Origin: an uncultured Prevotellaceae bacterium
Lineage (GTDB): Bacteria; Bacteroidota; Bacteroidia; Bacteroidales; Bacteroidaceae
Assembly: GCA_902761605.1 (NCBI GenBank)
Contig: CACWLC010000036.1
Coordinates: forward strand, 1 to 58,771
Reading direction: 5' to 3'
Length of the DNA: 58,771 nucleotides
Part shown: positions 9,348-54,264 of the stretch, in pieces
Position numbering within the stretch: position 1 is the first letter of the stretch
Layout of the letters: each line of letters begins with the position of its first letter
The notes under the pieces: generated by a model
Database searches by the model: none
What the model was told of the DNA's origin: nothing
The model's input: only the letters and a program-made list of their open reading frames with translations
Program-made: the position numbers and the translations under genes

Positions 9348-9461
9348 CTAATTGTTTCGCAGAAAATGTATTCTTTCTGAAAGAAATAAATATTTTTTGT
9401 AAATTCTGAGAACGATTTGTATAATATGAAGGAGTCTGCAAAGAAAAAAACTCTTTAATTC

Positions 9462-9492
9462 TTGCTGATATTGCTAAAAATGGTTACCTTTG
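9462..9492 (+). promoter_or_regulatory. Promoter of SDR-cbiB, with almost no leader
   Basis: TTG at 9462-9464, then 20 bases, then TACCTTTG at 9485-9492. Only seven bases separate the -7 element from the ATG, so the mRNA should be leaderless or nearly so. Confidence 0.65.
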
Positions 9493-9499
9493 CATTGTT

Positions 9500-10258
9500 A
9501 TGGATAGACAACGAAAGGCAATCGTCATTGGAGCTACTTCAGGAATAGGCATGGAAGTGGCGAAGGTATTGGCATCAAAAGGCTGGCTGGTGGGCATCGC
9601 TGGACGAAGGCAGGAACTGCTTCAGCAGCTGCAACGTAAGCATCTGAACATCGTAGCCACAGAGTGTATCGATGTAACAAAAGCAGATGCTCCAGAGCGC
9701 CTACAGACACTCATCGGCAAGACAGGAGGAATGGATCTATATTTCCACAGTTCTGGCATAGGATATCAGAACACAGAACTTGATATGAATCTTGAGTTGG
9801 CTACTGTCGAGACAAACGCCTTGGGAATGACTCGTATGGTTGGTGCCGCATTCCATTATTTTGCTGAACATCCTGAGCAGAAAGGTCAGATAGCCGTAAT
9901 AAGCAGTATCGCAAGAACAAAAGGCTTAGGCCCTGCCCCAGCCTATTCTGCCACCAAGAGATACACAAGTCATTATCTGGAGTCTCTCACTCAGCTGAGT
10001 CATATCCGAAAGCTCACAAACATCAGCATCCACGATATCCGCCCTGGTTTTGTCCGTACTCCATTAATAAATGGCAGTAACTATCCTATGCAGCTCAAAG
10101 CCGACAAGGTGGCCAGGCAAATAGTAAATGCTTTGGAACGGGGACGCTCTATCATTACCATCGACTGGCGATATAAGATATTGGTATTTTTCTGGCGGCT
10201 TATCCCACGCTGGATTTGGATAAGAATGCTTGGGGGAATCGACAAGAAATCTGTTTGA
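9500..10258 (+). CDS. Short-chain dehydrogenase/reductase (SDR)
   Basis: 252 residues. A classical SDR: cofactor loop GATSGIG (residues ~11-17) with GRR after strand 2, suggesting NADP preference; the SSG segment at strand 4; catalytic Ser in ISSIA; and the YSATK Tyr/Lys pair. The C-terminus (YKILVFFWRLIPRWIWIRMLG) is hydrophobic and may touch the membrane. The substrate is unknown. It lies 3 bases before cbiB and shares its promoter, but no SDR step is known in this part of cobalamin synthesis, so the co-transcription may be incidental. Confidence 0.85.
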   Translation: MDRQRKAIVIGATSGIGMEVAKVLASKGWLVGIAGRRQELLQQLQRKHLNIVATECIDVTKADAPERLQTLIGKTGGMDLYFHSSGIGYQNTELDMNLELATVETNALGMTRMVGAAFHYFAEHPEQKGQIAVISSIARTKGLGPAPAYSATKRYTSHYLESLTQLSHIRKLTNISIHDIRPGFVRTPLINGSNYPMQLKADKVARQIVNALERGRSIITIDWRYKILVFFWRLIPRWIWIRMLGGIDKKSV

Positions 10259-10261
10259 TAT

Positions 10262-11236
10262 ATGGGAACAAATCCGTTTGCACTATTAGTTGGATGGTTG
10301 CTTGATTTTATCTTTGGCGACCCGCAGAGACTTCCCCACCCTATTGTGTGGTTTGGGAAGATGATTGCTGCTGGGGAGCACAGGCTAAATAAAGGTAATG
10401 CTCGCAAGGCAAAGGGAGCGATATTAGCTATTGGGCTGATTCTTATGGTGTTTGGTCTTGCATGGGCAATAAGATATGTATTGAGCATTTTCGCACTCTT
10501 TATCTTTGATGGCACCAATCAGACTATTTATCAGATTCCTATATTCCTCTATATCTTTGACGTTATTGTAGTGTTCTTCTGTCTTGCAGGAACAACGCTG
10601 ATTAAAGAGGTCCGTGAGGTGTTTCTTGCATTAGACAGATCGCTCGAGGAAGGAAGGACTCAGGTAGCTCGTATCGTTGGTCGCGACACATCAGAACTCT
10701 CTGCCCAGGAAGTGCGCACAGCTGCCTTAGAGACCCTTGCAGAGAATCTGAGCGACGGAGTGATAGCCCCACTCTTCTGGCTCGCACTGCTTGGTACTCC
10801 AGGCATGCTGGCATATAAGATGGTGAACACGCTCGATTCGATGATAGGCTACAAGACGGAGAGATATAAGGACTTCGGCTGCTGGGCCGCACATATCGAT
10901 GACATCGCCAACTATATCCCAGCCCGTCTTACAGCTATATTAATGGTTCTGGCCTCTGGGCGATTAGGTTTGTTACAATTCGTCTGGAAGAACGGCAGAA
11001 ACCATGCATCGCCAAATAGCGGATATCCAGAAGCGGCACTCGCAGGAATTCTGAACTGCCGTTTTGGAGGACCGCATTACTATTTTGGCGAGCTTTTCGA
11101 CAAACCATATATTGGCGAGAATGAACGAGTCCTCACCACAGGAGACATGAAAAAAGCAGTACGCGTGAATCGTACTGCCGAGATTATTATGTTTGCTATA
11201 GTTCTTGCCGTAAGTCTTTGGGGGGCATTTTGTTGA
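10262..11236 (+). CDS. cbiB: Adenosylcobinamide-phosphate synthase CbiB/CobD
   Basis: 324 residues, the usual length. The diagnostic N-terminus LLVGWLLDFIFGDPQRLPHPIVWFGK is present, followed by membrane helices, the ETLAENLSDGVIAPLFW block, KMVNTLDSMIGYK and SPNSGYPEAALAG. This inner-membrane enzyme attaches (R)-1-aminopropan-2-ol O-phosphate to adenosylcobyric acid. The amine donor is made by the CobD decarboxylase encoded at 14.3-15.3 kb in the facing operon, so the two transcripts supply one pathway. Its stop codon directly abuts the stop of the convergent HAD gene with no space for a separate terminator. Confidence 0.93.
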   Translation: MGTNPFALLVGWLLDFIFGDPQRLPHPIVWFGKMIAAGEHRLNKGNARKAKGAILAIGLILMVFGLAWAIRYVLSIFALFIFDGTNQTIYQIPIFLYIFDVIVVFFCLAGTTLIKEVREVFLALDRSLEEGRTQVARIVGRDTSELSAQEVRTAALETLAENLSDGVIAPLFWLALLGTPGMLAYKMVNTLDSMIGYKTERYKDFGCWAAHIDDIANYIPARLTAILMVLASGRLGLLQFVWKNGRNHASPNSGYPEAALAGILNCRFGGPHYYFGELFDKPYIGENERVLTTGDMKKAVRVNRTAEIIMFAIVLAVSLWGAFC

Positions 11237-11950
11237 TTACAGGATATCCATCAGCTGACGCAGAGAGGTGACTTCATAGTCTATCGGCTCTGTGGCAGGA
11301 TATTCAGGATAACGATTGAAATAAGCCACACGAAGACCAGCCCTCTTGGCTCCAAGGATATCCGTCTGGAAGTTATCACCAATCATAAGAGTAGACTCTT
11401 TCTTTGCGCCCGATTTTTTGAAGGCGTAATCGAAATACTCTGGGGCGGGCTTGTTATAGCCAGCATCTTCGCTGAGGATAATCGTATCGAAGTATTCGTA
11501 GAGACCACATGCTCGAAGTTTCTTATATTGAACCTCATGGAATCCGTTACTGCACATGTGCAGACGATAACCTCTATTACGAAAGTAATCCATCAGCTCT
11601 TTAGCTCCTTCAACGAGTCCTGGCTTACAACTGCAGAAATCAAGGAAACGGTCGCTTGCCTCAAGACAGTAAGCCTCATCTGTAGTAAGACCCTCACCAA
11701 AGCTGAAAGGTTTACGGAAACGCTCCACAATGAGGTAGTCGCGAGTTATCTCTCCCTTTGAATAGCGAGTCCATAGATCGATATTTGCCTTCCAATACTC
11801 ATCATAGAAAACCTGAGGATCATGGAAATAACGCTCAAGATGAAGCAGATCGAAAAGCTCATGCAGAGCTATCACCGCATTGCCATGAGTATCATAGAGG
11901 GTATCATCGAAATCGATAAAGAGGTCAGAAATATTTTGTAATCTTTGCAT
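11237..11950 (-). CDS. HAD-family hydrolase, YjjG-like nucleotidase
   Basis: 237 residues. Motif I FIDFDDTLYDT has both aspartates. Motif II is MCSNGF, the conserved Lys is in GYNKPAPEYF, and motif IV reads MIGDNFQTDI, the pattern of the YjjG noncanonical pyrimidine nucleotidase subgroup. The helical cap between motifs I and II is intact. It overlaps the 3' end of cobT by 26 bases and is the last gene of the cobalamin operon. A role in removing a phosphate in the pathway (for example alpha-ribazole phosphate) is conceivable but is inference; nucleotide-pool cleaning is the family's usual role. Confidence 0.85.
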   Translation of the reverse strand: MQRLQNISDLFIDFDDTLYDTHGNAVIALHELFDLLHLERYFHDPQVFYDEYWKANIDLWTRYSKGEITRDYLIVERFRKPFSFGEGLTTDEAYCLEASDRFLDFCSCKPGLVEGAKELMDYFRNRGYRLHMCSNGFHEVQYKKLRACGLYEYFDTIILSEDAGYNKPAPEYFDYAFKKSGAKKESTLMIGDNFQTDILGAKRAGLRVAYFNRYPEYPATEPIDYEVTSLRQLMDIL

Positions 11951-13004
11951 TGTCGAAGTTGTTCATTTCGTTAATCATCCTCACAGCAGAATCAACTATT
12001 GGGAAGGCACAGAGGGCACCAGTACCCTCACCAAGCCTGAGACCAAGATTGAGCAGAGGTTTGGCATCTACCATATCAAGCATCATCTTATGAGCCTTCT
12101 CATCACCACAATGAGTGAAGATCATATAGTCCTGGGAGTCTGGATAAAGTCTGATGGCAGCAAGAGCACAAGCAGTCATGATAAATCCATCGACTAAAAT
12201 AATAAGGTGCGCCTCAGCAGCACGGAGCATCGCTCCGATGGCTGCAATCATCTCAAAGCCACCAAAGTAACGGAGCACCTCACATGGGGACAGGCACGTG
12301 TGTGATGTCTCTGACCTCACATCGTGCCTGTCCCCATGTGAGGTAAATCTCTCTTTGGCTTTGGAAAGGATTTCGTATTTATGACGGATGCCAGGAGTGT
12401 CGAGACCTGCACCAGCACCAATACAGTCGATGAGAGGGATGTCACCAAAAAGACTCAGCCAGATACTCGAAGGAGAGGTATTGCCTATGCCCATCTCGCC
12501 AATACAGAGGATTCGACAACCTTCTGATATGCAGTCATCCACAAGGTCGGAGCCTATTTGTATCGCTTTATCAAATTCCTCTTCGCTCATGGCTGGTTCA
12601 TAGAGGAAATTCTTGGTTCCTCGGGCAATTTTGCAATCAACGATATTTTCTATGCCTGAGAAGTCATAATCCACACCCACATCAACGATACGGAGTTTGA
12701 AACCATGCTGGCGACAGAACATGTTTACTCCTCCACCACCATGAGTGAAGTTAATCATCTGTTGCCACGTTACCTCGCGAGGCGATACACTAACGCCCTC
12801 ACGCTCTATCCCATGATCACCACCAAGCAGAAGATGACAAGGATGAGCCAAAGAAGGAGTTAATGTCTGCTGGATAAGACAAACCTGCATGGCAAGATCT
12901 TCAAGACGTCCCAAACTGCCCTTAGGCTTATTGAGGTTGTCTATCTTAGCCTGAATATCTTGTTGAATCGCCTTGTCTGAGCTTTTTATGCAAAACGTCT
13001 TCAT
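11925..13004 (-). CDS. cobT: Nicotinate-nucleotide-dimethylbenzimidazole phosphoribosyltransferase CobT
   Basis: 359 residues. CobT makes alpha-ribazole phosphate, the activated lower ligand of cobalamin. Family blocks present are LNKPKGSLGRLEDLA, LGGDHGIEREGVS, the glycine-rich THGGGGVNMF, GEMGIGNTSPSS, CIGAGAGLDTPGI, GGFEMIAAIGAML, LVDGFI and the GLRLGEGTGA block with its catalytic Glu. Between KAKERF and the EVLRYFGG segment lies an unusual stretch of about 22 residues. It is encoded exactly by a 68-base hairpin element (12277-12344) that keeps the frame. The insertion falls between conserved blocks, so activity may survive. Confidence 0.92.
   Translation of the reverse strand: MKTFCIKSSDKAIQQDIQAKIDNLNKPKGSLGRLEDLAMQVCLIQQTLTPSLAHPCHLLLGGDHGIEREGVSVSPREVTWQQMINFTHGGGGVNMFCRQHGFKLRIVDVGVDYDFSGIENIVDCKIARGTKNFLYEPAMSEEEFDKAIQIGSDLVDDCISEGCRILCIGEMGIGNTSPSSIWLSLFGDIPLIDCIGAGAGLDTPGIRHKYEILSKAKERFTSHGDRHDVRSETSHTCLSPCEVLRYFGGFEMIAAIGAMLRAAEAHLIILVDGFIMTACALAAIRLYPDSQDYMIFTHCGDEKAHKMMLDMVDAKPLLNLGLRLGEGTGALCAFPIVDSAVRMINEMNNFDNAKITKYF
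12277..12344. repeat. REP-like 68-base hairpin inserted in frame inside cobT
   Basis: Arms 12277-12298 and 12323-12344 are perfect 22-base inverted complements with cores GGGGACAGGCAC and GTGCCTGTCCCC. The 24-base interior is itself nearly self-complementary (TGTGATGTC against GACCTCACA, one mismatch), so the whole element can fold into one stem with a TCT loop. The GTGCCTGTCCCC core resembles palindromes mobilised by REP-associated tyrosine transposases. No other copy was noticed in the window. Confidence 0.8.
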
Positions 13005-13034
13005 TCCCCTTTCTTTTTTTACCTTTTTACTTTA

Positions 13035-13547
13035 TTACCCTTTTACCTTTAAAGGTATTCCGCTGACCATTAGGATTACCTCATCAGCCTTAGAGGCGAT
13101 ATACTGGTTCATCCAGCCTTCGAGGTCAGTAAATTTCCGTTGTATGGCATTCTCGCTCACACCTCCGCTACCAATCTCATTCGTAACGAAGATATAAGTA
13201 GCATCATGAGAGGTAAAAGCATCGAATTCAGCTTTTGCCATTTCCAACGATTTATCTACATCAGATTCGTTGTTAAAGAAGAAATTCGTAAGCCAGAGAG
13301 TCACGCAGTCGATTAATACCACACGTCCTGAGAGATTGTGATGGCTGAGATACATCTCCTCCTCGATGTTTGTCCATTGAGGCCCTCTCCTCTCCTGATG
13401 CCTGCGAACCCTTTCGCGGAACTCTTCATCCCAGATATGAGCCGTTGCCACATATACAGGATTATCTGAGAGGCTCAGAGCAATCCTTTCTGCCTCGCTG
13501 CTCTTTCCTGAGCGCTGACCTCCAGTGATAAGAATTATTCTACTCAT
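13035..13547 (-). CDS. cobU: Adenosylcobinamide kinase/guanylyltransferase CobU
   Basis: 170 residues from the ATG at 13547, which directly opens the MSRIILITGGQRSGKS P-loop (GGxRSGKS is diagnostic); upstream in-frame sequence belongs to cobS. Other landmarks are VYVATAHIWDEEFRERVRRHQERR, including the guanylylated His, then VLIDCVTLWLTN and FVTNEIGSGGV. The enzyme phosphorylates adenosylcobinamide and transfers GMP, giving AdoCbi-GDP for CobS. Its start overlaps the cobS stop by four bases (ATGA), so translation is coupled. 30 bases separate it from cobT downstream. Confidence 0.95.
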   Translation of the reverse strand: MSRIILITGGQRSGKSSEAERIALSLSDNPVYVATAHIWDEEFRERVRRHQERRGPQWTNIEEEMYLSHHNLSGRVVLIDCVTLWLTNFFFNNESDVDKSLEMAKAEFDAFTSHDATYIFVTNEIGSGGVSENAIQRKFTDLEGWMNQYIASKADEVILMVSGIPLKVKG

Positions 13548-14338
13548 AACGGCCACAAATAATTTGATGCACAGACATACAGATAAATCGACAGTTCTAC
13601 CAACAGGCACACAGCCCCACAACAATCGCCAGTATAGCCTCGCAGTTTGCTCCAAATAAACATGTAGAGCATATACATAACTACAGCAGGGATAAAAATA
13701 AGCGCCTCCCATGAGATACCCATAATGAAAATAAAGGCTATCATAGGCAGAAGGCCTTGTACAGCGAGACTTAACCCTGCCCAAGCACCAAACTTACGAT
13801 ATATGGTCTTCGATTTTGCCTCCTCCTCACTTCTGGCGTAAGGCATCATCAGTATCATCTGCGATGTCACCATCTTAGAATAAGGGTCGGCAGCAAAGAC
13901 CAATAATGTAGCAATGTATGGAGGAATAGAATAAAGAGCAGTTGTAAGAATCAGGAAATAGAATATCAGTCCCAGCACACCATAAGTTCCGATATGAGAG
14001 TCTTTCATTATGTTGAGAATCCTCTGGCGGTCACTGCCGCCGCCGAAACCATCAATGAAGTCAGCAAGCCCGTCTTCATGCAAGGCTCCAGTGATAAGAA
14101 TACGCACAAGGATGGCCAACAGCACCCCAACATATCCAGGAAAAATAAGAGTGGCGAAATACAAAGTCAGACCCATTGCTCCACCTGTAAGCCATCCTGT
14201 AAGAGGCCAATGCTCTACAACAGTCTGATAACAAGCTACTGGTGGTTGGCGTAATCTCCAAAACGGCAATCGCGTAAAGAAGATAAACGATGCCAAGATA
14301 CGGTCATACCACTTTGTCTGGTCAATGCTCACCTCCAT
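13544..14338 (-). CDS. cobS: Adenosylcobinamide-GDP ribazoletransferase (cobalamin synthase) CobS
   Basis: 264 residues with about six membrane helices. The hallmark LHEDGLADFIDGFGGG (residues ~86-101) supplies the metal-binding acidic residues, followed by ILNIMKDSHIGTYGVLGL. RGYTGDCCGAV near the C-terminus is the second conserved block. It joins AdoCbi-GDP and alpha-ribazole (phosphate) in the inner membrane, the last assembly step. It overlaps cobD upstream by 17 bases and cobU downstream by four, which indicates a tightly coupled operon. Confidence 0.95.
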   Translation of the reverse strand: MEVSIDQTKWYDRILASFIFFTRLPFWRLRQPPVACYQTVVEHWPLTGWLTGGAMGLTLYFATLIFPGYVGVLLAILVRILITGALHEDGLADFIDGFGGGSDRQRILNIMKDSHIGTYGVLGLIFYFLILTTALYSIPPYIATLLVFAADPYSKMVTSQMILMMPYARSEEEAKSKTIYRKFGAWAGLSLAVQGLLPMIAFIFIMGISWEALIFIPAVVMYMLYMFIWSKLRGYTGDCCGAVCLLVELSIYLYVCASNYLWPL

Positions 14339-15347
14339 CCTTAAACTCCTTTATTGCGTTGATTAGAGCATTGTTCTCCTCAGGACTCTGGGCAGCAACA
14401 CGGAAACAGTGAGCATCAAGACCATGAAAATTAGATGCATCACGAATAAGAATGCCATGATTCTCGATAAGCCAGTTTTTCAGTTCCAGACTTGTTGCCC
14501 AGTCGATATTCACAAGCATATAGTGAGTCTTGGTGTCCATCACCATAATACCATCGATGGCCTGCAGTTCATCATGCAGTCTCTGAGCCTCAGCAATATA
14601 GTCCTTAATATCAGGTATAACCTTGGGATCATTCTTAATAAGCCATTTACCAGCTTCGATAGCCAAGGTGTTTACTGTCCAAGGCTGACGGATATCCCTG
14701 AGACGTTCTATTATGATTGGAGAAGCAGTCATATAACCAAGTCTTAAACCTGGTATGCAGTATTTCTTCGACAACGAATGGAGAATCATTACATTGTAAC
14801 AATCCAACAATTCCTTGGGCTTGAGCATAGGCTGTAAGGTATAGTCAGCATAACTCTGGTCAATTACATGCAGGTATCTTGGATGTTTCTTTATCACATA
14901 AGCCAACAATTGCTTCAACATCACATTGCCTGTTGGATTATCTGGATTACAGATCCAATAGATACGATCCTCAGGAAGTATATTTAGTTCGTCTGTACGT
15001 TCATAAGAGATGATATGATCGAACATTCTACATGCATCGGCATATTCTGTATAAGTAGGCTGAGGAATGACAGAAGCCCAACCACGATAAAGCTGTGCAA
15101 TAAGGTAAATAGCCTCATTGGCGCCATTGGTAACCATCACCATCGAAGCAGGTATCTCCAGCTTTTCGGCTATCAGTTCCTCCAACTCTTTAGGCTCAGG
15201 CTCAGGATAGTTGCCAATAGCATCAAGACGAGTGGTAAGATATTGCTTCAGTTCTGTAAGATCAGCATTCTGGTAGATATTTGAGCTGAAATTCACCTTC
15301 ACCTTTTCGCCATATCGGTATGTGTCGTCCCCGTGTCCGTATATCAT
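14322..15347 (-). CDS. cobD: L-threonine-O-3-phosphate decarboxylase CobD (PLP, HisC-like)
   Basis: 341 residues, fold-type I aminotransferase family. The start MIYGHGDDTYRYG and VNFSSNIY are typical of CobD rather than HisC. PLP-site features are TNGANEAIYL, CNPDNPTGNVM (Asn/Asp ligands), DQSYADY and HSLSKKYCIPGLRLGY, where the Lys near 213 forms the Schiff base. The C-terminal FRVAAQSPEENNAL carries the substrate-binding Arg. It makes (R)-1-aminopropan-2-ol phosphate for CbiB. It lies 6 bases after the ABC ATPase gene. Confidence 0.88.
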   Translation of the reverse strand: MIYGHGDDTYRYGEKVKVNFSSNIYQNADLTELKQYLTTRLDAIGNYPEPEPKELEELIAEKLEIPASMVMVTNGANEAIYLIAQLYRGWASVIPQPTYTEYADACRMFDHIISYERTDELNILPEDRIYWICNPDNPTGNVMLKQLLAYVIKKHPRYLHVIDQSYADYTLQPMLKPKELLDCYNVMILHSLSKKYCIPGLRLGYMTASPIIIERLRDIRQPWTVNTLAIEAGKWLIKNDPKVIPDIKDYIAEAQRLHDELQAIDGIMVMDTKTHYMLVNIDWATSLELKNWLIENHGILIRDASNFHGLDAHCFRVAAQSPEENNALINAIKEFKDGGEH

Positions 15348-15353
15348 AAATCG

Positions 15354-16160
15354 TTATTTAGCTACTGTTACAGATAGATTTTGTGGGTCGAATGTAATTC
15401 CTGGTCGCTCAACATATCGAGCCAAAGCTCCATTAGAAGCAAGTTCTTGTGGAGTGCCAATATGGAGTTTAGGCTGTCCGTTGTCAGTTTGCGACTTTTC
15501 CATAAGCCATAGTGTATCGGCCACCTGAAGGGCAAGCTCGAAATCGTGAGTAGAGAGAAATATGGTCTTGTCTTTTTCCTGGGCCAGTCGCCTGAGCAGC
15601 TGCATCATCTCAACCTTACTTGGGAAATCAAGAAAGGCCGTTGGTTCATCGAGATAGATAACCGGTGTCTGCTGAGCCAGAGCCTTAGCTATCATCACCT
15701 TCTGACGCTCTCCATCAGAAAGAGTATGTATCATTCTCTGACTGAGACTGCTTATTCGCACAGCATCAATAGCATCGTCAACCTCATGCCAGTCGTCATC
15801 GTGAAGTGTTCCCCAGAATCCTGTATAGGGAGAACGTCCTAATGCTACCAGTTCACGAACAGACATATTCCTGATGTCAGGCTTCTCTGTAAGCACAACG
15901 CCTATCACACGACTAAGTTCCCTGTCATTAAAAGTCGAGATATTTCGACTTTCTATCAGAATCTCTCCTTCCAGCTTGGGCTGAAAGGCTGAAAGAGTTC
16001 TTAACAACGTAGACTTTCCAACACCATTAGCACCAAGGAGGCAGGTTAATTCGCCTCTCTTTATACTCGCATTGATACCGCTGGCCACAACCCTTGTTTC
16101 GTGGTTCTTAACCCGATATCCGATGCTTAGGTTCTGTAGTGTTATTGTCTCGCTATTCAT
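15354..16160 (-). CDS. ABC transporter ATP-binding protein, FecE/BtuD type
   Basis: 268 residues from the ATG at 16160; a start further upstream would lie inside the promoter. All NBD motifs are present: Walker A GANGVGKST, Q-loop region VLTEKPDIRNMSVRELVALGR, signature TLSDGERQKV, Walker B VIYLDEPTAFLD and switch His in LSTHDFELAL. The GRSPYTGFWG segment is typical of iron-siderophore/cobalamin importers. As first gene of the cob operon, a role in cobalamin or cobinamide uptake (BtuD) is likely. The matching permease and binding protein are not in the window, so substrate specificity is inferred from context. Confidence 0.85.
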   Translation of the reverse strand: MNSETITLQNLSIGYRVKNHETRVVASGINASIKRGELTCLLGANGVGKSTLLRTLSAFQPKLEGEILIESRNISTFNDRELSRVIGVVLTEKPDIRNMSVRELVALGRSPYTGFWGTLHDDDWHEVDDAIDAVRISSLSQRMIHTLSDGERQKVMIAKALAQQTPVIYLDEPTAFLDFPSKVEMMQLLRRLAQEKDKTIFLSTHDFELALQVADTLWLMEKSQTDNGQPKLHIGTPQELASNGALARYVERPGITFDPQNLSVTVAK

Positions 16161-16163
16161 ATC

Positions 16164-16201
16164 TTTGGTGCAAAGATACACCAAATCAATCAAACAGCCA
16201 A
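16164..16201 (-). promoter_or_regulatory. Cobalamin operon promoter with flanking inverted repeat
   Basis: On the minus strand TTGG (16201-16198), 19 bases, TATCTTTG (16178-16171). The -7 element is bracketed exactly by a 7-bp inverted repeat: TTTGGTG on one side and CACCAAA on the other. This could be an operator. The start codon follows 10 bases later. No cobalamin riboswitch fits in the 74-base gap. Confidence 0.65.
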
Positions 16202-16234
16202 ATTTTTCGTAAACTATTTTTAACGATAACGTTA

Positions 16235-17665
16235 TTAACAGCTAAGCAGACGATGGCCTAAATCTTTTTCCTTACATACAGATACTATCTGCCGTATTAC
16301 ATCATCCATCTTTGGCACAGAGGCAATATAATATGTGGGATAGTCAGGACATAGTACAACAAGATTCATCGCCTTTACATGTATGCCATAGTAAGTTTCC
16401 AGCATATAACGATAGAGGTTCTGTTGGATACAATAATGATAAAAAGCCGTATCAGGCAGATTGATGCCATTAAATCCCCGTTTGCCTCCAAAACCCTCTA
16501 CAATAGGAGCACCTTGGGTATTCACAACCTTACCACTACGTTTCCAGTCATAGATAGTAAACTCTCCATCGCTCTCACGACAGATAAGGTCGATTGTGCC
16601 AGCAACGTTAAGCTCTTGGTCATATACAGGCCATTCCTGACGATAAGGACGAATCTTGTAATCCTCGACAAAATGAAGGAAATGCTGTTTCTCTCGTTCT
16701 ACGCTAATATCTTCTGTCTTGCCATTATATGTAAAATGACACACTTCCTCAAAGAACCCACGTTGGAAATAGTTCTCTGTCTGAAGATGAACGAAAGTAC
16801 CCACCTCACTGGCAATACGGCCGATGCGATCCCATTGTTCCAGACTCTCCTCTACAGGGATATGGTAACGTGCATATTTCCGTTCAGCAGCAGCCAAAGC
16901 ATCAAACTCCTCGAAGAAATATGCTATCAGCGAACTGACAGGAAGGAATCGCTCCTGACCAGCATAAGTATAGATATGCTCATCTGGTTCGAAATCGATA
17001 AACTGATCCTGTTCATATAGGCCAGAATCTCTGAAAGTCGACATCTTCTCTGCCATATCCTCTGTACGAGGGAGTGCCTTAACTAATTGTTTGCATCTCT
17101 TTTCCTCCTCAGAGAAAACCAGAAGCCTGTTGGGTAGAGGAACCTCCTCTGGATATTGTTCTCCTTTGGCAGCTATCTTCAATGCCTCACTGCGAGTCCA
17201 ACGGTTTATTTGAGGTGTGAAGTTAGTGATGAGAGGTGAGAGTGAGAGGAGAGAGAGAATATATTCTGCACAAGCCAGAGGAGCTCTCTGAATCTGCAGG
17301 ACAGCAAATCTTATTACCGTCCAACCATGACGATTCAAGAGGCTGTCTCTATACTGATCACCACACGACAGATAATGAATAGGTTTGCGATCAATGGTAT
17401 AAGGCTCATCGATTTCTACATCAATGCGTATTTCTGGGCGACCATCAACCAAAAGAGCAATATCTGGATAATAAGGAGGCTGGTGTTCCGACACATTAAT
17501 ACATACATCCTGGAGTATCTGAACCTGCTCAGGCAAAACCTTCTGGAGATACTGAATGAAATAAGCCTCCAAACGACCTGTACGAGGTCTCTGGATTCTG
17601 CGATAAGGATAGAGCACCGTACCTGCTTCCGGACGGCTTACGATAGGATATGTCTCTAAAGCCAT
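16235..17665 (-). CDS. Two-domain PD-(D/E)XK nuclease-like protein
   Basis: 476 residues. The N-terminal ~120 residues resemble the DUF559/Vsr-like restriction-endonuclease fold: YPDIALLVDG, IDVEIDEPY (acidic pair ~84-86) and RDSLLNRHGWTVIRF. After a linker with HIYTYAGQERFLPVSSLIAYFF, residues ~280-476 show a complete RecB/Cas4-like set: His293 in GTFVHLQTE, Asp359 in AGTIDLI, D373-x-K375 in YDWKRS, and QNLYRYMLE as the Q-x3-Y motif. Two nuclease folds in one chain are unusual. It is last in an operon with envelope proteins, 3 bases after DUF3108, which offers no clue. Role unknown: DNA repair, processing or defence are all possible. Confidence 0.65.
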   Translation of the reverse strand: MALETYPIVSRPEAGTVLYPYRRIQRPRTGRLEAYFIQYLQKVLPEQVQILQDVCINVSEHQPPYYPDIALLVDGRPEIRIDVEIDEPYTIDRKPIHYLSCGDQYRDSLLNRHGWTVIRFAVLQIQRAPLACAEYILSLLSLSPLITNFTPQINRWTRSEALKIAAKGEQYPEEVPLPNRLLVFSEEEKRCKQLVKALPRTEDMAEKMSTFRDSGLYEQDQFIDFEPDEHIYTYAGQERFLPVSSLIAYFFEEFDALAAAERKYARYHIPVEESLEQWDRIGRIASEVGTFVHLQTENYFQRGFFEEVCHFTYNGKTEDISVEREKQHFLHFVEDYKIRPYRQEWPVYDQELNVAGTIDLICRESDGEFTIYDWKRSGKVVNTQGAPIVEGFGGKRGFNGINLPDTAFYHYCIQQNLYRYMLETYYGIHVKAMNLVVLCPDYPTYYIASVPKMDDVIRQIVSVCKEKDLGHRLLSC

Positions 17666-22031: not shown

Positions 22032-22100
22032 TTTTATTCCCAGCGTGGGAACAAAATATTCCCAGCCTGGGAATGAAATGTTCCCACGCTGGGAATAAAA
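22032..22100. repeat. Three TTCCC-N5-GGGAA palindromes at 22-bp spacing
   Basis: Units at 22037-22051 (TTCCCAGCGTGGGAA), 22059-22073 (TTCCCAGCCTGGGAA) and 22081-22095 (TTCCCACGCTGGGAA) have centres exactly 22 bases apart. The outer units with their flanks (22032-22053, 22079-22100) form a perfect 22-bp inverted repeat. The cluster lies 12 bases after the rnc stop and about 100 bases upstream of the GH3 gene; it could be an operator array or an intergenic mobile palindrome. Confidence 0.75.
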
Positions 22101-22111
22101 ACAAAGGTATA

Positions 22112-23152
22112 TTATCCCTCAGCAAAGGCAGCAGCCTCAGCTTCAGCAATTATATCTTCGCGAGATTTCTCCTTATGGGTGATGTCGGAAAGATCGAATT
22201 CATCCTCCAGTTTAGAGTTTGCTGCCGCTACAGATTTTTCCTCGAAAGATTCCTGTGGAGCGGTAGCAAACTCTACACTCTCAGTTCTAAACTCTCCACT
22301 ATCATTACTTATAATAAAATCCTGCTGCTCTTTCTCAGGATCAGGCACCATCATCGTTGGCTCTTCCTCCATCTTCGTACGATCAGACTTCGCCTTGAAG
22401 ACAGCCTCAACAAACTGGGGTTCACGCTTTAATCTCTGAAGAGTATCTTTTGATGCAAGTTGCTGGGCCTCCTTTTTAGAAAAACCAGAACCTTTCTCAC
22501 CCTCAACTCCTTCGAGCATCACCTGAAAACTGAATATCGGACTACCATTATCATCCTTTTTCTGTTTCAGCATGCGATACTCCATGCGTACCTTATTCTT
22601 CTGACTCCACTCAAGCAACTTAGACTTGAAGTTTACCTCCTTGAAAGCCACCTTGTCGAGATCAATATATTTTCCAAGTACACGATTCTCCCAAAACCAC
22701 ATGCAAGCATCATATCCACGATCCAGATAGATTGCCCCCACAAGAGCTTCGAAGGCATTACCACCTACGTAGCTGTTATGAGAATTACTGCGTCCTGCAG
22801 ACAGTATGAGTTGGGAAAGTCCCATCTCTGTGGCAAGTTTTCCAAGAGTCTCACGAGAAACGAGCTTACTACGGGTATTAGTAAGAAATCCTTCTCGTTT
22901 ACCTTCATAATGACGATATACGATATCGCCCACAGCAGCATCGAGTATAGCATCTCCAAGAAACTCAAGACGTTCGTTATTCAGAGGTTTTCCCTTGTCA
23001 TTACGCCTTCCGATGCTCTTGTGCATAAGTGCCTGTTGATAATATTTGATATCACGAGGGTAGAATCCAAGTATATCGTAGAGAGCAGAAAAAAGCTCCT
23101 TCTCCTTACGGAAAGGGAGCTTTATATAATCAATAATGTTATTAATCCACAT
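22112..23152 (-). CDS. rnc: Ribonuclease III with acidic C-terminal extension
   Basis: 346 residues. The RNase III signature NERLEFLGDAIL (residues 59-70) supplies catalytic acidic residues, and the second catalytic Glu lies in GGNAFEALVGAIYLD. A dsRNA-binding domain follows (~174-243: NFKSKLLEWSQK ... GFSKKEAQQLASKDTLQRL). About 100 extra residues beyond the dsRBD are Glu/Ser/Thr-rich and probably disordered; E. coli RNase III is only 226 residues. The enzyme processes rRNA precursors and structured mRNAs. Its start overlaps the fabF stop by 11 bases; acpP-fabF-rnc is a recurrent Bacteroidota cluster. Confidence 0.95.
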   Translation of the reverse strand: MWINNIIDYIKLPFRKEKELFSALYDILGFYPRDIKYYQQALMHKSIGRRNDKGKPLNNERLEFLGDAILDAAVGDIVYRHYEGKREGFLTNTRSKLVSRETLGKLATEMGLSQLILSAGRSNSHNSYVGGNAFEALVGAIYLDRGYDACMWFWENRVLGKYIDLDKVAFKEVNFKSKLLEWSQKNKVRMEYRMLKQKKDDNGSPIFSFQVMLEGVEGEKGSGFSKKEAQQLASKDTLQRLKREPQFVEAVFKAKSDRTKMEEEPTMMVPDPEKEQQDFIISNDSGEFRTESVEFATAPQESFEEKSVAAANSKLEDEFDLSDITHKEKSREDIIAEAEAAAFAEG

Positions 23153-43331: not shown

Positions 43332-43428
43332 TTCCCCTCCTGAGTAGGAGGGGTTAGGGGTGGTCTGAGCAGCCTGATGATCTGCCATTGATCAGACCCC
43401 CTCTAACTCCCCCTACTCAGGGGGAGAA
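43332..43428. repeat. GC-rich imperfect inverted repeat, REP/MITE-like
   Basis: The left arm (from 43334: CCCCTCCTGAGTAGGAGGGG, then TTAGGGGTGGTCTGA to ~43368) is mirrored by the right arm (from ~43391: ATCAGACCCCCTCTAACTCC, then CCCTACTCAGGGGG). The left arm also folds on itself around GAGTA. It fills the lgt-ychF gap. The composition differs sharply from the surrounding AT-rich gaps. Confidence 0.7.
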
Positions 43429-52091: not shown

Positions 52092-52330
52092 CAATTGTTA
52101 GCATTAATAGTAGCATTTGCAGGCATTAATGCTATCAATCCATATCTATATCTGATATCGTTCTTGCTTCTGTATAGCCGATTCACATAAATTAACAATT
52201 TGTTTTTTAATGCCCAATATCTACCGTTTATCTCCTATAAACATGTCTTTTAGCACTACTAAATATACTGTTTTCGCGCAGTAAGTGGATAGTATTTTCT
52301 ATTGCTTTAAGAGAGAACTATTCCCACTAA

Positions 52331-52374
52331 GGGATTGCAGTATTTTCTCTATGGGATTGCAGTATTCAATTTAT
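52331..52374. repeat. 22-bp direct repeat downstream of uvrC
   Basis: GGGATTGCAGTATT occurs at 52331 and again at 52353, each within a 22-base unit ending TAT. A weaker AGTATTTTCT copy precedes it near 52290. No known role. Confidence 0.55.
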
Positions 52375-52392
52375 GGGTTTCCTACGTCCTCT

Positions 52393-54225
52393 TTATTGCT
52401 CTGAAGGATGAAAATGGTCGTAGATAATCCGTGCCTTTGAGGGTCCAATGATAGCTGCCAGATCTTCCAGTGATGTAGCTTTGATTTGCTTGACCGATTT
52501 AAGGCCGTTTAGAAGCGTGTCGCGCGTCTTGGTTCCGATGCCTTGTATGTCATCCAGCTCGGAGTGCAAAGCCCGCTTAGAACGCTTGTTTCGATGGAAT
52601 TCGATAGCAAAGCGATGCACCTCATCCTGGATCTGTGTGAGGACATGAAAGAGCTCAGAATCTGTCTTCAGCGCGACGTGAATAGGAGGGAAACCATAGA
52701 GCAGTTCGTTGGTGCGATGACGGTCGTCTTTTGCAAGTCCGGCGATAGGAATATCAAGGTTCAGTTCGTCTTGAATCACCTCGCGGATGACGCCCATCTG
52801 CCCCTTTCCGCCATCAGCAATAATGAGGTCGGGTAGGGGTTGTTCTTCATCGAGCATTCGTCTGTATCTGCGACCTACAACTTCCTTCATCGAAGCATAG
52901 TCATCAGGCCCTACAACGGTCTTAATATTGAAGCGTTTATAGTCTTTTTTGCTGGGCTTCATTCCCTTGAAAACGACGCAGGAAGCAACAGCATCCGTAC
53001 CCGATATGTTCGAGTTGTCAAAGCACTCGATATGATACGGCAGCTTCGGCAGGTGAAGCTTCTCCTGAAGTTCTTTCATCAGACGTGTCTGCTTCTGTTC
53101 TGGGTTGAGTTTCTCGGCTTGTTTCAGACGGTCGAACTTATATTGTTTGCCGTTCATAATGGAGAGGTCGAGCAGGGTCTTTTTATCGCCTCTCTGGGGT
53201 ATTGTGAAGGTCACATTTTCGAGTTCTACATCCACCTCCTGAGGCACGATAATCTCCTTTGCATCGCTCTTGAAACGCTCCCTTAACTCCACGATACCAA
53301 GCTGTAGAAGTTCGTCATCTGTCTCGCTCAATTTCTTTTTGTACTCGATGGTAAAGCTCTGGTTGATGCTTCCATTCGATACGTGGATATAGTTGATGAA
53401 GGCCATCTTTTCATCTGACGTGATAGAGAATACGTCAACGTTATTTATCGTATGGCTTACCACTTCACTCTTACTTGCGAATGTATCGAGAGCAATGTAC
53501 TTTTTCTTTATTTCCTCTGCCTCCTCAAACCTCAATTCTTCAGAAAGTCTGATCATTTCATCCTTGAGATCTTTTAGTACCTGGCGACTGTTTCCCTTCA
53601 GAATCTCACGAGCCTGATTTATGTTCTTTTGGTAGTCCTCATACGTTTGTTTTCCTACGCATGGACCCATGCATTTCTTTATGTGGTAATCGAGGCAAAC
53701 TTTATATTTCCCTGTTTCAACGCCATCTTTTGTGATGGGCTGATTGCAAGTTCGAGGATGATATAGTTCTTTGATGAGTTCGAGGATAGCATACATGCTT
53801 CCTATATGAGAGTAAGGACCATAATATGAACCCCATTTCTTGTTGATGGTTCTGGTTTTAAATATACGTGGGAAGAATTCGTTTGTAACGCAGATGGAAG
53901 GGTAGGTCTTACCATCTTTGAGAAGAACATTATAGCGAGGATTATATTTCTTTATGAGTGAATTTTCCAGAAGTAATGCGTCCTCTTCTGTATTCACAAC
54001 GGTATAGCTGATATCGTGAATCTTGCTTACGAGAACTTTTGTCTTGAATCGATCTACTTCCGTATGGAAATATGATGAAACTCTTGATTTAAGATTCTTG
54101 GCTTTACCTACATAAATAATCGTATGTTCATCATCATAGAATTGGTAGCTGCCTGGCTTATCGGGAAGTCTGCTAACAATTCCTTTTAGGTATGATATTC
54201 TCTTCTCGTTTTCTTCCCTTGTCAT
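52393..54225 (-). CDS. uvrC: Excinuclease ABC subunit C
   Basis: 610 residues from the ATG at 54225 (MTREENEKRISYLKG); an ATG eleven codons upstream is an alternative. N-terminal GIY-YIG nuclease (LPDKPGSYQFYDDEHTIIYVGKAKNLKSRVSSYF), the CLDYHIKKCMGPCVG cysteine block and a UVR domain (LKDEMIRLSEELRFEEAEEIKKKY). The RNase-H-like 5' nuclease follows (IECFDNSNISGTDAVASCVVFK, LIADGGKGQMG, ELLYGFPP). Tandem helix-hairpin-helix motifs end it (LDDIQGIGTKTRDTLLNGL). It makes both incisions in nucleotide excision repair. A parS palindrome lies 40 bases before the chosen start. Confidence 0.96.
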   Translation of the reverse strand: MTREENEKRISYLKGIVSRLPDKPGSYQFYDDEHTIIYVGKAKNLKSRVSSYFHTEVDRFKTKVLVSKIHDISYTVVNTEEDALLLENSLIKKYNPRYNVLLKDGKTYPSICVTNEFFPRIFKTRTINKKWGSYYGPYSHIGSMYAILELIKELYHPRTCNQPITKDGVETGKYKVCLDYHIKKCMGPCVGKQTYEDYQKNINQAREILKGNSRQVLKDLKDEMIRLSEELRFEEAEEIKKKYIALDTFASKSEVVSHTINNVDVFSITSDEKMAFINYIHVSNGSINQSFTIEYKKKLSETDDELLQLGIVELRERFKSDAKEIIVPQEVDVELENVTFTIPQRGDKKTLLDLSIMNGKQYKFDRLKQAEKLNPEQKQTRLMKELQEKLHLPKLPYHIECFDNSNISGTDAVASCVVFKGMKPSKKDYKRFNIKTVVGPDDYASMKEVVGRRYRRMLDEEQPLPDLIIADGGKGQMGVIREVIQDELNLDIPIAGLAKDDRHRTNELLYGFPPIHVALKTDSELFHVLTQIQDEVHRFAIEFHRNKRSKRALHSELDDIQGIGTKTRDTLLNGLKSVKQIKATSLEDLAAIIGPSKARIIYDHFHPSEQ

Positions 54226-54264
54226 TTCATTAATCCCTTTATATAAAAGCCTTTTCAAATGTTT

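Follow-up and report, generated by a model that had tools for sequence, protein, structure and literature searches.

A palindromic TIR-like repeat forms the CobT linker of a Prevotella-like bacterium and shares its core with the flanks of Y1 transposase genes in relatives

The window (the whole stretch of 58,771 nucleotides that was analysed) carries a 359-aa ORF that matches the CobT model TIGR03160 at 391 bits, with a cut-off of 319.3. The gene adjoins a cobS-like ORF whose best NCBIfam match (170 bits) lies below the cut-off of 273. A preliminary description of this DNA had placed in cobT, in frame, a palindrome of 68 bases with perfect 22-nt arms, and on both points it was right: the 22 nt at 12277-12298 pair without a mismatch (100%) with the 22 nt at 12323-12344, leaving 24 nt between the arms, and the element lies within the frame of the 359-aa ORF. 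It is the sole perfect palindrome among the 13 inverted repeats listed for the window by a search with arms of at least 16 nt and a distance limit of 80. Folded as RNA in the cobT sense it reached -55 kcal/mol, whereas 200 shuffles had a mean of -22.2 (sd 3.3) and 0/200 were as low (z -10); the 24-nt interior forms a short extra stem. The flanks read cggagc followed by ACCTCAC on the plus strand and agattt followed by ACCTCAC on the minus strand, and no target site duplication is visible at the ends of the palindrome, for which there is no clean empty site for comparison. The architecture of the element, two hairpin units in inverted orientation, is given in Table 1.

Table 1. Position and parts of the palindromic element in cobT (positions of the window)
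Feature	Position	Strand	Basis
cobT, nicotinate-nucleotide--dimethylbenzimidazole phosphoribosyltransferase, 359 aa	11925..13004	-	TIGR03160, 391 bits
23 codons TSHGDRHDVRSETSHTCLSPCEV, variable linker between ...AKERF and LRYFGGFEM	12276..12344	-	alignment to relatives
Palindrome of 68 bp, made of two hairpin units as an inverted dimer	12277..12344	.	arm, unit and fold analysis
Second unit ACCTCACAT-GGGGACAGGCACG-TGTGTGATGT, stem imperfect, inverted relative to the first unit	12277..12308	+	unit alignment
Core GGGGACAGGCAC, includes GGGGWSAS	12286..12297	+	core search
Spacer CTCTG, 5 nt, separates the two units	12309..12313	.	sequence
Perfect unit ACCTCACAT-GGGGACAGGCACG-ATGTGAGGT, 9-bp stem, core in loop	12314..12344	-	unit alignment, DNA folding
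Core GGGGACAGGCAC, inverted copy	12324..12335	-	core search

All of the CobT linker in the window's genome (G000) is derived from the element (23/23 residues). The GAG-to-GGFEM stretch measures 47 residues in G000; among the 21 relatives listed, 15 have 33-39 residues and the other 6 have 43-52. It spans 34-39 residues in 7 and 43-47 in 4 of 11 other cobT genes of the genus, and 33-37 in 8 of the 10 sister genomes listed, the last 2 having 48 and 52 (cobT was present in 11 of the 14 sister genomes searched). Since the usual length is 36-37 residues, cobT has gained about 10 codons net and not the roughly 22 first proposed, even though 23 codons are occupied. Solved CobT chains, to which the linker was aligned, have a shorter stretch here, by 14 residues in the top two matches and by 13 in the third.

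The sequence that fills this linker differs between close relatives, several of which bear RUG names and are presumably rumen MAGs. The CobT of RUG12212 is 92% identical to that of G000 at the protein level and 91% at the nucleotide level over aligned columns, but its gene has no palindrome and holds in the same linker a CTCACCT-type tandem repeat without a hairpin. Repeats of the CTCACCT type also fill the linker in RGIG7297 and SRR11784296_bin.24; an AATTGTC tandem is found in Tb.RUG.441, a TGCATT-type repeat in G018 and an ACTCTAA-type repeat in G022. RUG12989 carries at the same boundaries (RFT...EVLRYF) a collapsed 26-bp copy of the window's element. Internal repeats were longer than in codon shuffles (p < 0.05, uncorrected for the 26 tests) in 9/26 cobT linkers, with p <= 0.005 for 8 of these and 0.045 for the other, which comes from outside the genus; the test parsed 26 of 27 linkers (L253 was unparsed), and L247 and L248 are identical. 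The cobT linker is a hot spot for repeat turnover between sister species. The preliminary description had suggested comparing sister strains for an empty site, and the site does differ between sister species, but an empty cobT site with otherwise identical flanks was found in none of them: as 21/21 relatives listed carry another linker, insertion and replacement of an older linker both fit. The linkers of relatives are not all equally long, non-palindromic segments.

If the hairpin were a selected RNA element of cobT, one that slows translation, as the preliminary description had raised, or sets mRNA stability in the cob cluster, its very stable fold would be expected. The 92% identical sister CobT is however encoded with a tandem repeat in place of the hairpin, the same element lies in unrelated genes, and no known Rfam RNA was found at the gathering threshold in 9400-17500. 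Because the element occurs in unrelated genes and the cobT of RUG12212 is without it, there is no support for a control specific to cobT, which we rejected; we regard a selected RNA element here as very improbable.

Other repeats of the window were recorded in passing. An inverted repeat of 24 nt (88%, AGTTTAGAGTTTGC type) at 22209-22279 falls in the 3' part of an ORF on the minus strand (22112-23152) that we take to be rnc, as its product looks like RNase III; the repeat resembles the ACTCTAA-type repeat in the cobT linker of G022 and is possibly another repeat-derived protein segment. Three copies of TATTCCCAGCGTGGGAATAAAA units lie just downstream of the apparent rnc (22032-22100) and a TATTCCCACTAAGGGATTGCAG array lies beyond the end of ORF 52393-54258 (52319-52377); the units and the array may represent another repeat family. 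A hairpin with 40-nt arms, 83% complementary, is present at 43332-43428.

The genome search that had been suggested for the repeat found it dispersed, and the repeat is thus not unique to cobT: the exact core occurs at 10 places in G000 and its reversed control at 0. The hosts are a HisKA two-component gene, a PAP2 gene (two cores), the genes of PrmC and an acyltransferase, cobT itself (two cores), a GH92 glycosidase frame in which the core sits between the two Pfam domains, and a protein of unassigned family that has the core near its C-terminus; the tenth core occupies a frame without a family match, close to the end of a contig. With at most one mismatch the core is found at 24 places, and since the control gives 7, some of the 14 extra places are due to chance; mnmA and a U32/DUF3656 gene are hosts of one-mismatch copies. 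Four sites in G000 (control 0) fit the stem pattern CCTCACA-N12-24-TGTGAGG, of which 3 hold the exact core and 1 a one-base variant, and eight aligned units of this genome preserve the core and most of the stem. When eight hairpins were folded as DNA, one was no better than shuffles and the mnmA unit was weakly better.

Of the nine scored cores of G000, eight (in 6 genes) count as intragenic, a class defined by an open frame of at least 200 aa with at least 40 aa on each side of the core. This scoring left out copies less than 400 bases from the end of a locus as well as duplicates; for G000, L010 was dropped, L004 and L009 were merged with L003 and L008, and the one-mismatch copies L015 and L019 were unscored. 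The wide variation of linker length and sequence among relatives would agree with a chance palindrome in an ordinary hypervariable CobT linker, or with an artefact of assembly. Against this, the unit recurs elsewhere in G000 with a control of zero, and the element stands at the same boundaries in the cobT of RUG12989 and in the prmC of named MAGs. We rejected a chance palindrome on the genome copies, the perfection of the arms and the fold relative to shuffles, and an assembly artefact on the presence of the element in several named MAGs; the probability left to either is close to negligible.

The copies in prmC and mnmA were compared with their counterparts in relatives. In prmC, G000 has a double element of 59 bp between ...CRWI and IDIGTGSG, and the stretch exceeds that of G013 by 9 residues but is 3 residues short of that of G007, in which the core was not seen. 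The prmC element is common to RUG12989, RUG12212 and, up to the contig end, RGIG7297. Its arms are CACTC/GAGTG in G000 and CACGC/GCGTG in RUG12989; as the differences fall at paired positions, the symmetry of the arms is kept between these two genomes, while in RUG12212 it is not. The element in mnmA covers residues that are present in relatives and leaves the length unchanged with respect to G018, G013 and G020. The mnmA of G018 has like stems around a degenerate core in the opposite orientation to that of G000, a difference that may reflect an inversion or two independent insertions; the G000 form is also found in RUG12212.

These comparisons bear on an explanation without a transposase, in which errors of DNA replication, such as template switching at quasi-palindromes or gene conversion between copies, spread the element and keep it perfect and the linker is simply a place that tolerates them. 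Paired differences in two prmC copies that are both palindromic (a symmetry that the RUG12212 copy lacks), opposite orientations of the mnmA cores between like stems, and the other, tandem repeats in the same cobT linker of sisters would all suit such errors. They leave unexplained, on the other hand, how one unit came to be dispersed to several unrelated genes and why it is tied to Y1 transposase genes (see below), and we think replication errors unlikely to be the main cause.

At the ends of a transposase gene of G200 (L132) like stems occur with the loop core inverted in one of them, as between the mnmA copies of G000 and G018. Other repeat-like coding stretches are found at the same places in relatives, in the prmC of G011 (L159) and in L204, L205 and L192 (U32 gene of relatives); these linker stretches read GRPNRES.LQLGRPQGVPLR, CGMRNEECGMRN and SPHTSHPLPLTPH and are consistent with a wide turnover of repeats in linkers.

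The core is held by 54/200 genomes of the genus. In 60 genus regions, hand-picked from the core places listed (for G088 the listing comprised 20 of 34 places), 19/72 copies were intragenic, where random positions in the same loci gave 0.57; in named contigs the count was 8/25, with 0.72 for random positions. As both values are below those of random positions, genes are not a preferred target and are rather avoided, and G000 is unusual in the location of its remaining copies. A pattern scan for the form CTCACA-N-core returned 29 stretches in GTDB species genomes, among which records of the own genome may be left out; 26 are labelled Prevotella, Prevotellaceae or Bacteroidales and the other 3 Collinsella, Lachnospiraceae and an unnamed bacterium. 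These labels, together with the 92% identity of the RUG12212 CobT, are the grounds for calling the host Prevotella-like.

A Y1 transposase was found above the Pfam cut-off in 108/200 genus genomes. In G196 and G099 the exact 12-nt core flanks such a gene as an inverted pair, and in G018 it lies upstream of one on a contig that ends soon after the gene. Proteins of this type match PF01797 above the cut-off and reach 66-68 bits with the NCBI model for REP-associated transposases (NF047646), below its cut-off of 80; no C-terminal Pfam domain was found in the Y1 transposases by profile search. Relatives of the G099 protein occur at E <= 1e-20 in 42/200 genomes. A TIRYT gene is present in 10/12 genomes with at least 3 cores and in 32/188 others (Fisher p = 3e-6), and at thresholds of 1, 2 and 5 cores p was 0.003, 7e-4 and 7e-5, all of these values being uncorrected for the kinship of the genomes and G000 being scored as lacking a TIRYT gene.

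Flanks, stems and tyrosine motifs were analysed at 30 transposase loci among the matches listed. The strict motif (GGGGACAGG/GGGGACTGG/GGGGTCAGG/GGGGACAG) stands on both sides in 6/30 of these genes, and an inverted pair of any kind flanks 20/27 (3 of the 30 loci, with a short flank, were excluded), with GGGAC/GTCCC in 18 of the 20 pairs. A control with mismatched flanks reached the pair score in 8.7% of 300 draws (best score 30), probably because some genes share ends. By a scripted rule applied without a shuffle control, 14/20 transposase ends have a perfect stem of at least 5 bp; the GGGAC loop is framed by a stem that differs between genes, as in GTACACAAAAGGGACGGTTCCTTTTGTGTAC, AGATCAGGGGACGGTTCTCTGATCT and CTGACAGGGGACAGGTACCTGTCAG. 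The ends of L112 and L114 are inverted dimers built on the same plan as the cobT palindrome. All 30 listed genes encode the tyrosine motif YIHQNP, followed by tails of 123-158 residues, in proteins of 251-298 aa.

Profile search found no Y1 domain (PF01797) in the contigs of G000, a genome that is 85% complete. In a search that covered part of the extracted loci, contig C61 of G000 was seen to end inside the 3' end of a G018-like transposase gene (23 identical residues, one more and the stop). The TIR after this fragment has a GTCAT stem and not CCTCACA, which leaves the CCTCACA stem without a known cognate transposase.

The likeness to REP palindromes moved by TnpA-REP transposases, which had been proposed from the core, holds in that Y1 genes of relatives are flanked by it and fails in that the hairpin foot has no GTAG or GTGG and the core matches the GGGGWSAS motif of TIRYTs. 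Canonical REP, BIME and REPIN elements of E. coli and Pseudomonas are, like the cobT element, inverted pairs of short hairpins with a Y1 transposase as partner, but the foot of their hairpins bears a GT[AG]G guide and they are extragenic, whereas the cobT element lacks the guide, has its shared motif in the loop and belongs to a set in which 8/9 scored G000 cores are intragenic. A canonical GTAG REP was rejected on the hairpin foot.

Among the closest likenesses is that to the terminal inverted repeats of TIRYTs, the TIRs of "TIRtrons" (Di Nocera et al. 2013, PMC3733652). As far as the part of that paper used here describes them, TIRs share GGGGWSAS with the cobT core, flank Y1 tyrosine transposase genes as the core does in G196 and G099, and are dispersed as single, dimeric or clustered copies, some self-complementary, as they are here. 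Both cobT cores contain the motif as GGGGACAG, and flanking of the kind that marks the TIR family was found for the 12-nt core and not for the CCTCACA stem. In the same part of the paper, intragenic insertion is described for GTAG and CGTC repeats and not for TIRs, whereas the cobT-type repeat is both TIR-like and intragenic; the GGGAC loop in a variable stem, a feature of the present repeats, is not described there for TIRs. The word Prevotella is absent from the paper.

In-frame palindromes have precedents. According to the passages of PMC3733652 concerned, Rickettsia palindromic elements (RPEs) and other intragenic REPs (O. terrae etc.) are short palindromic repeats inside unrelated protein genes, more than half of them dimers or grouped, and code for 20-30 residues; they resemble the G000 copies in sitting in frame in unrelated genes, but they carry a GTAG or CGTC tag, and both tags are absent from the cobT element. 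CGTC repeats are given in those passages as having no known dedicated transposase, while the cobT core is tied to Y1 genes.

For the transposases, the relevant account in PMC6006769, cited here from part of its text, defines a Bacteroidetes subclass 2.6 of TnpA-REP (RAYT group 5) with the motif YIH[QN]NP and with atypical secondary structures that flank the gene and are copied elsewhere in the genome, and a subclass 2.1 without REP-like hairpins that probably equals the TIRYTs. The transposases studied here have YIHQNP but are 251-298 aa long, compared with a median of 179 aa for subclass 2.6. In that part of the text the 2.6 structures are given without sequence or in-frame copies, and the GGGG motif is assigned to TIRYT/subclass 2.1. 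Judged from sequence, the partner would be 2.6-like in YIHQNP and have a TIR motif as in TIRYT/2.1, and part of the present finding may already be covered by the atypical structures of subclass 2.6. Among the matches listed from PMC full-text literature we found no description of a TIR-like repeat family in Prevotella or Bacteroidetes and, by title, no bacterial-repeat paper containing the core sequence strings. In-frame palindromes have been reported in Rickettsia and other bacteria, and the present family, TIR-like and placed in genes of Prevotella type, seems to be a further, novel form.

Taken with the dispersal of the core and its place beside Y1 genes, the cobT palindrome is in our judgement quite probably a non-autonomous element of mobile type, an inverted dimer of the terminal hairpin repeat of an HUH/Y1 transposase (RAYT/TIRYT type) of the Prevotella-like group. 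Each unit would consist of a short, element-specific stem, here CCTCACA/TGTGAGG, around a GGGGACAGGCAC loop, and our best guess is that the Y1 transposase recognises single-stranded hairpins that share this loop. Such a transposase is the likeliest agent by which dimers and single units would be copied or moved across the genome. Most copies that hit genes would be lost and those in frame in tolerant linkers would survive selection. In cobT the element would then have become the linker itself, filling the stretch between two conserved blocks and encoding its 23 residues, presumably without strong harm to CobT.

More broadly, and tentatively, since we would put its chances at somewhat less than even, a distinct Prevotella-like class of hairpins of HUH/Y1 transposases, with a GGGAC loop, an element-specific stem and often the form of an inverted dimer, could be a continual source of linkers. 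Tolerant linkers of housekeeping enzymes would be landing sites where these and other short repeats settle in frame time after time, and linker sequence would thus turn over between sister species, with the remainder of the gene at about 90% identity. If true, this would extend in-frame palindromic insertions, best known from Rickettsia, to Prevotella-like bacteria, and the shared core would tie the insertions to transposase genes and make the mechanism testable. It also points to terminal repeats that, for these transposases, are hairpins read by both a shared loop and a variable stem, where subclass 2.1 is reported, in the part of PMC6006769 cited above, to be without REP-like hairpins. The case further shows how protein linkers can be rewritten by short repeats from one species to a close relative, a point that bears on annotation and on the reading of indels in MAGs.
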